Part shown: one piece after another, positions 213-10,040 of the stretch | Layout: each line of letters begins with the position of its first letter | Position numbering within the stretch: the first letter of the stretch is position 1 | Assembly (NCBI RefSeq): GCF_011761495.1 | Contig: NZ_JAASRU010000005.1 | Location: 1 to 64,000, forward strand | Reading direction: 5' to 3' | Length of the DNA stretch: 64,000 nucleotides | Source of the DNA: Alkalibacillus almallahensis | Lineage (GTDB): Bacteria > Bacillota > Bacilli > Bacillales > Alkalibacillaceae | Made by a program: the position numbers and the translations under genes | The notes under the pieces: model-generated | The model's database searches: none | Told to the model about the DNA's origin: nothing | Seen by the model: the letters and a program-made list of their open reading frames with translations, nothing else

Positions 213-328
213 GTTCGCCGATATTTTCATTATATCAGCGCTTTACCTGGCTTGGTCGCCGTTAAATATCGCATATCAGCGACCTACAAAATATATCGAC
301 GACTCAGCATTTTTATCGATGACGTACA
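213..328. repeat. 20-bp-period intergenic repeat array, left half (array A)
   Basis: Cores resembling TATCRGCGMC start at 233, 274, 294 and 314, the last three exactly 20 bp apart. Inverted copies (TCGCCGAT-like) lie near 215 and 254. The array is cut by the insertion sequence that starts near 329 and resumes on its far side at 1804. No coding capacity is apparent. Confidence 0.7.
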
Positions 329-368
329 ATAGTCTGTGTAAAGGATCCCTTCCGGTATAAAAAAAGAA

Positions 369-420
369 GGTAAGGTACAACCTTTTAGTAACCAAAACCA
401 AAAAAAGGATGTGCCTTACC
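369..420 (+). promoter_or_regulatory. Leader inverted repeat before the transposase start
   Basis: Arms 369-378 and 411-420 are complementary with one wobble pair. They enclose the A-rich ribosome-binding stretch AAAAAAAGGAT, one base before the ATG at 422. A hairpin here in readthrough transcripts could hide the start region, a common way for insertion sequences to limit transposase made from outside promoters. The function is inferred. Confidence 0.45.
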
Positions 421-421
421 T

Positions 422-1591
422 ATGTCTAATAGTATGTCAGAAAATAATTATTTTAAACCCCTAGAAGAGCTTGTATTAAATTTTGTGAAAGATCACTTAG
501 AAGAGATTATGAAAGAAGAGATGAAAAACTTCTTTGACGTTGAACACCCTGAATTAAAAAATAGTAAAAATGGATTTTATGAACGATTATTAGATACGCG
601 TTATGGTCGCATAGATGATTTGTCAGTTCCCCGTGATCGCGAAGGTTGTTTTCAAACCGCTTTATTTGACCCTTATCAACGACGAGAAAGATGGTTAGGT
701 GAGACGATCATTGAAATGTACAGTAAAGGGGTTAGCACACGTGAAATCGCTCAGTTTATTGAGCGAATGCTTGGCGATTCGTATTCCGCATCAACGATAA
801 GCAATATCACAGATGTTGTCGTAGAAGATATTCAAAAGTGGCAGAAGCGCCCATTGAGTAAACGGTATTCTGTATTATATCTGGATGGAACGTACCTTAA
901 ATTGCGACGACATGATGTCGCGAGTGAAGTGATTTATGTCGTTGTTGGTATAACAGAAGAAGGATATAAAGAAATCATTAGCTTTCAAGTAGGAGGACAA
1001 GAAAGTTCTTTGGGTTGGAAAGAAGTCTTAGCGGATTTACGTGATCGTGGTGTTGAAGAAGTATTATTAGGGGTTTTTGACGGTTTAACAGGCTTAGACG
1101 CCAGTTTTAAAGAAATGTTTCCTAAGGCGGATGTTCAACGTTGTGTGACACATAAGGTGCGCAATACGCTACACAATGTTCGTAAGACAGATCGTGAAAC
1201 ACTCGTTGAGGACTTGAAAAAAGTTTATCGTGCTGATACGACAAAAGAAGCGCTAGCTTATTTTGATGATTTCAAAGGTTCTTGGCAATCCATTTACCCT
1301 AAAGTCATTGAATCTTGGGAAGACGATTTAAATGAGCTACTGACATTTATGAAATACCCTAAAGAAATACAGCCCCAAATCTATACAACCAATACGATAG
1401 AACGCACCATGAAAGAAATCAAAAAACGAACACGATCCATGAATAGTTTACCTAGTGAACAAGCAGTCGAAAAGATCATTTATCTAGTGACTCAAAATTT
1501 CAACGAACGATGGGCCAAACGTGTTATTACAGAGTTTGCGTCGGCAAGAGAAAAGTTATCTAAGATGTTCAAAAAACGTTACGAAGCTTAA
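422..1591 (+). CDS. IS256-family transposase
   Basis: This 389-residue protein has the full length of IS256 (mutator-type) DDE transposases and catalyses cut-and-copy transposition of the surrounding element. The catalytic triad is visible: Asp155 in LYLDGTYL, Asp220 in GVFDGLTG and Glu327 in TTNTIERTMKEIKKRTR. The CysxxHis-type motif QRCVTHKVRN follows the second Asp, as in the family. No frameshift or stop interrupts it, so it is probably functional. The ATG at 422 is preceded by AAAAAAAGGAT; an alternative ATG lies four codons downstream. Nothing else shares its transcript. Confidence 0.95.
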   Translation: MSNSMSENNYFKPLEELVLNFVKDHLEEIMKEEMKNFFDVEHPELKNSKNGFYERLLDTRYGRIDDLSVPRDREGCFQTALFDPYQRRERWLGETIIEMYSKGVSTREIAQFIERMLGDSYSASTISNITDVVVEDIQKWQKRPLSKRYSVLYLDGTYLKLRRHDVASEVIYVVVGITEEGYKEIISFQVGGQESSLGWKEVLADLRDRGVEEVLLGVFDGLTGLDASFKEMFPKADVQRCVTHKVRNTLHNVRKTDRETLVEDLKKVYRADTTKEALAYFDDFKGSWQSIYPKVIESWEDDLNELLTFMKYPKEIQPQIYTTNTIERTMKEIKKRTRSMNSLPSEQAVEKIIYLVTQNFNERWAKRVITEFASAREKLSKMFKKRYEA

Positions 1592-1630
1592 TAAAAGAGG
1601 TTGACCTTAACCTAGCTCGGCTCCTTATTC

Positions 1631-1745
1631 GTTGGTTTGACATGGAGCCTCTGTGGGCATGAGTTTGAAGCCAAACCGCCAGATTTTAAAAAACTTGGCT
1701 ACACCAATCAAGGCTATCATGCCCACCACTCCATATAAAACCAAC
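1631..1745 (+). ncRNA. Structured non-coding tail of the IS256 element (candidate RNA)
   Basis: Three nested perfect pairings close one long stem: 1631-1638 with 1738-1745 (8 bp), 1642-1647 with 1729-1734 (6 bp) and 1653-1662 with 1718-1727 (10 bp). Only small internal loops separate them. Inside, 1669-1674 pairs with 1695-1700. The structure fills the gap between the transposase stop and the right inverted repeat. It could act as a terminator, an RNA made by the element, or a transposase-binding DNA structure. I know of no named family for it. Confidence 0.45.
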
Positions 1746-1794
1746 TATGAGGAATGATCAACGTGTGGGTGCTCCTTACACAGACTTATTGACA

Positions 1795-1930
1795 CTACCT
1801 TTTTATCGGCGCCATCTGGAATATAACGGCGCCATTTTAATTTTTTCGGCGCGCGCTGATATATAACGGCAAGCGCCGTAATATCAGTTATATCGGCGAC
1901 CCACAGCAATTTTATCGGCGACCCGTTCTC
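1795..1930. repeat. 20-bp-period intergenic repeat array, right half (array A)
   Basis: Cores start at 1804, 1824, 1844 and 1864 (20-bp steps), then at 1891 and 1913 after a small disturbance. Around 1857-1890 the sequence can fold into an imperfect hairpin. This continues the array interrupted by the insertion sequence. An open frame through it on the - strand is a by-product of the repeat and not a gene. Confidence 0.7.
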
Positions 1931-3557: not shown

Positions 3558-3639
3558 TACCGCCTCCTTCAGATAATTCTATTTTATCAACTTTATAAAG
3601 AAAAAACATACTATATTCTTCCATTAGGGATAGTACCGA

Positions 3640-3771
3640 TATTATCAGCATATCAGCGCCTCACGAGATTTATCGGCGCCATCCAAAATATTTCAGCGCC
3701 TCAACAAATATAACGGTGCCCGCTGATATATATCGACGACCTTGAACATTTTAACGGCGACTTAGGTTTAG
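3640..3771. repeat. 20-bp-period intergenic repeat array (array B)
   Basis: Cores of the type TATCRGCGMC start at 3651, 3671, 3691, 3711, 3731 and 3752. That is five exact or near-exact 20-bp steps, with the last one 21 bp. A partial inverted copy lies just before, near 3634-3645. The ten bases between cores are variable and A/T-biased. The array fills the gap between rpiA and the zinc-ribbon gene. Confidence 0.8.
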
Positions 3772-5163: not shown

Positions 5164-6093
5164 ATGGCATATAGAGTTTTATTAACCATATTCGTGATAA
5201 TTACTCTAATAATCGCTAACCCTGTCCAAGCTGAAGAACAAGATGACGAATCAACTAATGAAACCGATACAGAAAAAGAAGACAATTCTACTAAAGACGA
5301 CACCTCAACAGAAGATGGTACAACTCAAGATGAAGAATCACCTAACAACAATAATGGTGAAGAAGAATCTCCTGACCAAACTGAAAGCGATGAAAATGAC
5401 CAAGAGTCCAGCGATGATGAAGAAAATAGCTCATCAGATGAACAAGGAAACACTTCAGAGCAAGACTCATCTGATTCAGATGAATCTAATGACTCAACTA
5501 ATGAATCCTCAAATGAAGATTCTACAGCTGAAGAAGACGATTCTTCGGATACAGAGACATCCACTGATGACAATTCGACCGAGACCGATACAAATACATC
5601 CAATCAAAATGACTCCAATGACACCCAAGATTCGAATGACCAGCATAATGAATGGAATAACGACAACAATGATTCAACTAGCGATTATTCAAATTCAACA
5701 AATAACTCAAACGATACAAACGAAACTTATGAAAGCACCGAAGAGAATACATACGAACAAACCGAGGAACTAGAAGAATCAGATGACATCACAGATGAGG
5801 AACTACCTGATGAAACTGACAATTCCAACCGAGAAGAACACTATAACAAAGACCTTGATGATCTAGCTCTGCAAGATCAAAACATCGAAGACCATTCACG
5901 CCCTATATCGAATCAAATGACAAAGATGCATGCCTACTCTCAAAACAAAACGGCTGTAAGTGGTGTTTTTGCACAGCGACAAGCCTCAAGCCCTGGATCA
6001 ACCCACACCATGATGCTAGTCTTTAGCTTAGCCATTATCCTTACTATATCAGCATTATTCCTTGTCGTTCGTCAACATAGATATAATAAATGA
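5164..6093 (+). CDS. Extremely acidic, low-complexity membrane-anchored surface protein
   Basis: The 309 residues comprise a signal peptide (about 1-23, ending VQAEE), a region of about 240 residues built almost only from Asp, Glu, Ser, Thr, Asn and Gln, and a C-terminal membrane helix (about 280-300) followed by a short basic tail (RQHRYNK). That is a type I membrane topology with the acidic part outside. No LPXTG motif or folded domain is recognisable. The ribosome site AAGGAGGG supports the ATG. It resembles Ser-Asp stalks of surface proteins, but no adhesive domain is attached. I do not recognise a family. Confidence 0.75.
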   Translation: MAYRVLLTIFVIITLIIANPVQAEEQDDESTNETDTEKEDNSTKDDTSTEDGTTQDEESPNNNNGEEESPDQTESDENDQESSDDEENSSSDEQGNTSEQDSSDSDESNDSTNESSNEDSTAEEDDSSDTETSTDDNSTETDTNTSNQNDSNDTQDSNDQHNEWNNDNNDSTSDYSNSTNNSNDTNETYESTEENTYEQTEELEESDDITDEELPDETDNSNREEHYNKDLDDLALQDQNIEDHSRPISNQMTKMHAYSQNKTAVSGVFAQRQASSPGSTHTMMLVFSLAIILTISALFLVVRQHRYNK

Positions 6094-9903: not shown

Positions 9904-10040
9904 AGTCGCCGATATTTCAAGCATATCGACGACTCAGAAATTTTATCGACGCCATCTGAAATTTAACGGCGCCTCAGCGCATATATCAGCGCCCGCTGAT
10001 ATATATCGGCGAGCGTGGGTAATTTATCGGCGACTTAGCT
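9904..10040. repeat. 20-bp-period intergenic repeat array (array C)
   Basis: Cores start at 9924, 9944, 9964, 9984, 10004 and 10025. The steps are 20, 20, 20, 20 and 21 bp, the same pattern as array B. An exact inverted core (GTCGCCGATA) at 9905-9914 opens the array. Two adjacent units form a perfect 11-bp hairpin (9981-9991 with 9994-10004). The array lies in the 625-bp gap between the TRAP operon and the GntR gene; the rest of that gap (10041-10280) shows no recognisable feature. Confidence 0.85.

Follow-up and report, generated by a model that had tools for sequence, protein, structure and literature searches.

Replication iterons are direct repeats with a fixed pitch, and eukaryotic satellite DNA comprises several tandem families per genome, which turn over unit by unit and replace one another between species. 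A role as boundaries or in supercoiling has been proposed for BIMEs, which have also been linked to gyrase. Among plasmid partition systems, parC/ParR families that differ in their repeats and in the protein that recognises them are described in PMC9426499, and in the parC site of pSK41 the 20-bp repeats are bound by ParR and the DNA wraps around this protein. BOX elements of Streptococcus pneumoniae have the composition boxA-boxB(n)-boxC and, according to PMC3049150, are folded, transcribed and accompanied by target duplications. REP/BIME sequences associated with RAYT proteins are described in PMC3733652 as dispersed and extragenic 20-40-bp palindromes of several families that are often located downstream of genes; CGTC REPs are said there to lack a dedicated transposase.

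The arrays described here, from the source genome (G000; 2.71 Mb in 36 contigs), have features of all of these. Like iterons and parC they are direct repeats with a fixed pitch, which at 20 bp is also that reported for pSK41 (PMC9426499), but they occupy many chromosomal gaps rather than one plasmid site, and neither an adjacent parMR or rep gene nor a plasmid match was seen. The ParR profile PF10784 was silent in all genomes searched and likewise in the control genomes, so this search is uninformative. Similarity to BOX elements, as portrayed in PMC3049150, extends to their short, modular, dispersed and intergenic nature, the variable tandem middle units and the inverted repeats at the ends; in contrast, the arrays have an exact 20/21-bp pitch that is shared by several unrelated cores, the pairing of their arms is not conserved between the source genome and its sister G005, and no target duplication was recognised. 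The arrays are also dispersed, extragenic and often downstream of genes, with palindromic parts and several families, as are REP/BIME sequences, but they consist of phased direct sites instead of the 20-40-bp palindromes of that account (PMC3733652). A GTAG-REP/RAYT system does not fit, as GTAG precedes the arm in only 2/28 hairpins and a search with PF01797 gave no match to a Y1 (RAYT-type) transposase in G000 or G002-G005; elsewhere this profile matched once in G001, which belongs to the same genus, twice in G018 and in 5/14 control genomes. With regard to MITEs, array C has inverted terminal cores (see below) and one array (T9) is confined to the source genome; at T9 no clear target duplication was evident by eye, and no cognate transposase was found. 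Several tandem families, unit-wise turnover and replacement between species are shared with eukaryotic satellites, from which the arrays differ in being short, in lying in bacterial gene gaps and in showing position-specific conservation. We found no paper on such arrays in open-licence PMC text searched by description and by the letters of the core, among the matches listed.

Three arrays are present in the window (the whole 64-kb stretch of DNA that was analysed). An earlier note on this DNA had placed cores of the form TATCRGCGMC at positions that are correct for array C, for array B (3651 to 3752) and for part of array A (274 to 314). Array C (9905..10034, plus strand) begins with an inverted core (9905-9914), located 19 bp before the first of the direct cores at 9924, 9944, 9964, 9984, 10004 and 10025, and includes a palindrome at about 9984-10001. 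Array B (3632..3761, plus strand), which has an orthologue in G005, starts with a degenerate inverted core (3632-3641) at the same offset of 19, followed by direct cores at 3651, 3671, 3691, 3711, 3731 and 3752. Both the final 21-bp step and the inverted or partly inverted starting core that had been claimed are therefore present in B and C, while array A has two inverted cores. Its left part (214..323, plus strand) contains inverted cores at 214-223 and 255-264, a core at 233 and direct cores at 274, 294 and 314; its right part (1804..1922, plus strand) has cores at 1804, 1824 and 1844, as claimed, and a head-to-head palindrome, then cores at 1891 and 1913, whereas the further site claimed at 1864 is degenerate. 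The two parts form a single array that is split by an IS256-type insertion sequence (332..1785, plus strand; transposase 422-1591, PF00872). In G005 the orthologous array is present and the insertion sequence is absent. No direct target duplication was seen at this element, and the sequences on its two sides, CAATA and TTATTG, stand in opposite orientation to each other. IS256 was rejected as the source of the arrays, since the element interrupts array A and is unlike the cores at its ends. The strongest self-similarity in the window apart from the arrays belongs to a low-complexity open reading frame (5164-6093) that is very rich in Asp, Glu, Ser, Asn and Thr and has a C-terminal hydrophobic segment.

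The layout is modular, with a start module, a variable number of tandem units and an end module. A typical module often starts with an inverted core, followed after 9 bp by a direct core and then by one direct core per 20 bp, with a final step that is often 21 bp. When inverted-direct core pairs were searched at start offsets of 17-21, 27/28 were found at offset 19 (one spurious row, L053, is excluded from this count), and palindromes of the type TATCRGCG-NN-CGCYGATA-TA sit within the 20-bp phase. The arrays were not reproduced by simulated sequence: the window contains 15 pairs of cores that lie on the same strand and 20 or 21 bp apart, compared with a mean of 0.34 and a maximum of 3 in 200 Markov-1 sequences, using a tolerant core with C4 and G8 fixed and at least 9/10 allowed letters. 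All 15 pairs fall within the first 11 kb, and none occurs between 14 and 64 kb, from which the arrays had been reported absent. Single tolerant cores are at chance level (150 versus a simulated mean of 147); single cores counted with the pattern of the earlier note and up to two mismatches are mildly enriched (96 versus a mean of 74, with 0/100 shuffles reaching 96). The observation of phased arrays is confirmed, and among same-strand steps of 11-31 bp those equal to 20 or 21 account for 96/104 in the source genome and 93/111 in G005.

A genome-wide search, which the earlier note had proposed, places the TATCRGCG family in 16 gaps of the source genome, on contigs C3, C4, C5, C7, C9, C13 and C19. 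Array C as a DNA query gave 31 matches at E≤1 in this genome, and R1, a three-unit model that uses sequence alone and was built from 34 training sequences (24 of them from the source genome), gave 69 at E≤1, the weakest of which are probably chance, and 51 at E≤0.01; the figure of 16 gaps derives from the latter, grouped by hand with array A counted once. Contig C5 is rich in arrays and positions 1-200 kb of contig C1 are nearly devoid of them. At E 0.01 R1 matched 12/40 genomes, including the source genome; among the others it is strong only in G005 (44 matches), with 14 weak matches in G003. At E 1e-7, 7/299 genomes of the order match, the source genome again included. Among named genomes, 50 stretches contain an exact two-unit pattern; judged by genus name, 34 of them are from Bacillaceae and 16 from elsewhere. 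Many of the Bacillaceae stretches have longer arrays, for example in Cytobacillus depressus, Bacillus sp. S/N-304-OC-R1 and B. ndiopicus. The 16 others contain a single pair each, with a few further 20-bp units in Frankia and Streptomyces and a 10-bp repeat in Gelidibacter.

The TATCRGCG arrays are one of several families of equal pitch, which extends the picture beyond that of the earlier note. We applied a core-blind scan, based on banded self-alignment, to 464 kb of the source genome (all of contig C5 and parts of C7 and C1, the first two picked for having arrays and C1 because R1 is silent there), to 400 kb in G003 and to 200 kb in both G026 and G018. A second-order Markov copy (n=1) of the G003 stretch gave one match at a score of at least 20, compared with 33 in the real stretch. 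At score 22 and outside open reading frames of at least 100 codons, the best period is 20 or 21 in 29/33 matches from the source genome and G003 (a few are weak or merely AT-rich); the same scan gave none in G026 and two in G018, with periods of 16 and 21. At least four more families are present in the source genome, with cores of the TTTCGCTGTAT, ATTGTTTMACAAT, TTTTGAAATAAAT and CGCTCATTTATTT type, and gap S16 carries a TATCATCGAG-type core. In G003 the cores are TTTGGCGCTCG with TATCAGCGCTCA, TATTCGGTAATAA, GTCCGACATTAA and ATCGGGCGAAA. Those with a common YRGCG heart may be drifted relatives; other cores lack this heart. In the TTTCGCTGTAT family 17/18 steps in the source genome are 21 bp (the exception measures 42), and across its 21 units the nine columns at the end, which form the spacer, carry 0.0-0.4 bits. 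As these units were picked by a regular expression for the core, conservation of the core columns is by construction and the result lies in the pitch and the spacers. G005 has eight units with this core, with steps of 21 (6/7) and 63. At named loci 31/33 matches outside open reading frames in Bacillaceae have a period of 20 or 21, compared with 0/2 in other groups, a figure biased by the choice of these loci with a 20-bp pattern.

Comparison with G005 reveals how the arrays evolve in place. Twelve arrays of the source genome were aligned with their G005 orthologues and substitutions were tallied per unit position, counting both directions. Core positions 0, 3, 6 and 7 together are substituted in only 25/694 cases (8/173, 3/173, 5/174 and 9/174, respectively), compared with 135/435 at spacer positions 12-14 (p 7e-20, halved counts); core position 4 is more changeable (43/173). 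Overall, the core shows 193/1733 substitutions and the spacer 258/1456 (p 0.0002, halved counts), with 751/4093 in sequence outside the arrays; related sites in these tallies are not independent of one another. The earlier statement that the bases between cores vary is borne out for positions 12-14 and fails for positions 11 (8/144), 16 (13/146) and 18 (6/147), which diverge little between the species, so that the protected footprint may reach 16 of the 20 bp. It is qualified further by arrays B and C, which align in register at 82% mean identity including the spacers, implying that arrays are also copied from place to place. Orthologous arrays differ by whole units, in the TATCRGCG family and in the others.

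Orthologous gaps, identified by the flanking gene ends in G001-G004 and, where the remaining families are concerned, in G005, G003 and G002, can differ in their cores. G003 has an array at a score of at least 22 in 6/21 gaps that carry arrays in the source genome (S8 on both sides, S14, S15, S16 and T5), whereas S5 (score 19), S7 (18), S12 and C (both 16) fall below the threshold and no array is present at S4, S6, S9, S10, S11, T1, T2, T4, T7, T8 and T9; gaps A, B, S13, T3 and T6 were left out of this count. The background in the scanned G003 stretch is 14/151 gaps of at least 100 bp, so that the excess of arrays at orthologous gaps is only modest (binomial p 0.010, with gap lengths unmatched). 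In G002 an array is found in 7/13 of the S and C gaps, a raw count without a background figure. The sisters carry TTTGGCGC and TATCAGCGCTC units at S5, S14 and S15, CCGGCGAA types at S7 and S8 and TTAGGCGAA at S16. At T5, ATTGTTTMACAAT in the source genome and G005 is represented by GTCCGACATTAA in G002 and G003. T2 has TTTCGCTGTAT in the source genome and G005, TTATCAGCGCTC in G002 and none in G003, and at T3 the source genome has TTTCGCTGTAT while both G005 contig ends that meet there have ACCATCGAGTT. S6 in G001 is occupied by a GCGTCCGACTG array. The T9 array is absent from G005, G003 and G002, in which the gap is about 40-55 bp. As families replace one another in this way, no particular core appears to be needed at a gap.

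Gaps containing 20-22-bp arrays are convergent in 10/28 cases compared with 24/262 other gaps (p 0.0004) and divergent in 1/28 compared with 60/262 (p 0.014), both based on heuristic calling of open reading frames. The arrays are thus in excess between convergent genes and rare between divergent ones, a bias that could stem merely from avoidance of promoters. Loci selected by the core comprise 18 convergent, 14 co-directional and 5 divergent cases and 6 at locus edges, some flanking open reading frames overlapping the arrays. Not all arrays lie in 3'-3' gaps, since at L130 in G010 a 21-bp array of the TTTATCGGCAAGTTTTC type adjoins enolase on its 5' side and seems to separate it from gpmI (gene names assigned by eye). 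No gene recurs next to arrays at the loci that we looked at, the neighbours being ordinary chromosomal genes. A rule for replication-strand polarity was discarded (10 opposite and 6 same in the source genome, 9 and 6 in G005), and the arrays point in no consistent direction with respect to GC skew. In G003, six arrays of the same family are clustered within 24 kb (contig C1, 73-97 kb; L154 and L155), and 210-400 kb of that contig is almost free of arrays.

With slightly better than even confidence, we read the arrays as phased strips of putative sites for sequence-specific DNA-binding proteins, located mostly beyond the 3' ends of genes. An exact pitch combined with constrained core positions and nearly information-free spacers is hard to obtain without a protein that reads a site and measures the distance to its neighbour. 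The idea of phased protein sites in the earlier note is supported to this extent by cores conserved in place, by retention of the pitch in the TTTCGCTGTAT family and by arms that are not kept complementary. Its geometry, of two helical turns per unit with all cores on a single DNA face, requires modification. At an assumed 10.5 bp per turn, each 20-bp step rotates the core by about -34 degrees, or about half a turn over five steps, so that this family would need a wrapped complex, of the type formed by ParR on plasmid centromeres (PMC9426499); a straight face fits the 21-bp families. Each protein unit would read about 8-11 bp and the next would dock 20 bp further on (21 in the sister families), the inverted sites and palindromes bounding or folding the strip. 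Binding of this kind could be cooperative and coat the strip, 20-bp arrays would probably be wrapped, and each family may have its own, perhaps paralogous, protein. In the gaps at gene ends the bound strip would then serve as a boundary or as an anchor, blocking read-through, taking up supercoils or organising the nucleoid, and would not be an ordinary operator; the preference for the 3' sides of genes suggests a boundary or supercoil role similar to the one proposed for BIMEs, although promoter avoidance by itself would produce such a bias. Several points count against protein sites. No binding protein was found in this analysis, families replace one another at one gap, the T9 array is missing from three sisters, arrays at orthologous G003 gaps are only modestly above background, and 20 bp does not make a whole number of turns. 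Runs of identical units, together with the likeness of B and C, show tandem duplication and copying between places.

The latter features are expected of selfish, satellite-like repeats, the main rival to the protein-site reading. The cores would in that case be recognised by an enzyme (a recombinase, nuclease or transposase) that copies and expands units at a two-turn step, and arrays would spread into permissive gene-end gaps and replace one another with no gain for the cell. Replacement of families at a single gap, the T9 array and the patchy distribution within the order are also consistent with such spread. Nevertheless we consider it unlikely, as idle copies would not show conserved core positions at arrays that stay in place in two species, no gene recurs beside the arrays looked at, neither G000 nor any of G002-G005 has a Y1 transposase, and no target duplication was recognised. 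Neutral minisatellites, generated by replication slippage with a preferred step of 20-21 bp, would explain the runs of identical units and the unit-wise indels, as 40 gap runs in the alignments with G005 include six of 20 bp, one of 40 and one of 60, but 15 are of 1 bp (the rest range from 3 to 79). Slippage would neither hold the pitch once spacers are scrambled, as in the TTTCGCTGTAT family, nor conserve core positions nor place the same core in many gaps, and is quite improbable.

Two further explanations seem highly unlikely. A transcribed RNA element, with hairpins that serve as terminator or regulator, is suggested by array C, which on either strand folds better than its shuffled versions (z -3.6 and -3.7), and by one two-sided arm change at S16 between G003 and G002/G004, in another family. 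A conserved fold of the BOX type with compensating changes was not found between the source genome and G005, however: among 52 arm positions that are paired in one species and altered in the other none is two-sided, 42 break pairing and 10 become G-T, with 296 unchanged. At core position 4 the two arms have the same purine in just 16/28 hairpins, and the 64-kb window has no Rfam match at gathering thresholds. As the core is conserved in place and the arms are uncompensated, the pattern on balance favours selection on double-stranded sites rather than on an RNA or a cruciform. Relics of plasmids or phages, in the form of iterons or partition sites, to which we attach an equally small probability, would account for fixed-pitch direct repeats like those bound by ParR in pSK41 (PMC9426499). 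Array C has no match at E 1e-5 in 72,556 plasmid and 50,697 phage records, two viral stretches have one core pair apiece and no array, and the neighbours looked at are ordinary chromosomal genes; these comparisons give no support for a phage or plasmid origin.

To return to protein-binding strips, a more specific version is tentative and in our view rather doubtful. Bacillaceae chromosomes may carry interchangeable strips with different cores, a site every 20 or 21 bp, nearly free spacers and a location beyond the 3' ends of genes, each coated by its own member of a putative protein family that marks or insulates the gaps there. Protein and core would co-evolve, which would let families drift and take each other's place at a given gap. 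If such proteins exist, they would constitute a new level at which the chromosome is organised, offering many natural families to compare; selfish arrays, on the other hand, would amount to a bacterial form of satellite DNA whose two-turn step is built in. Two types of unit can also occupy the same gap: at L117, L118 and L119 in G003 and L126 and L127 in G002, TTTGGCGC-type units give way to those of the TATCAGCGC type, and the order is identical in 5/5.
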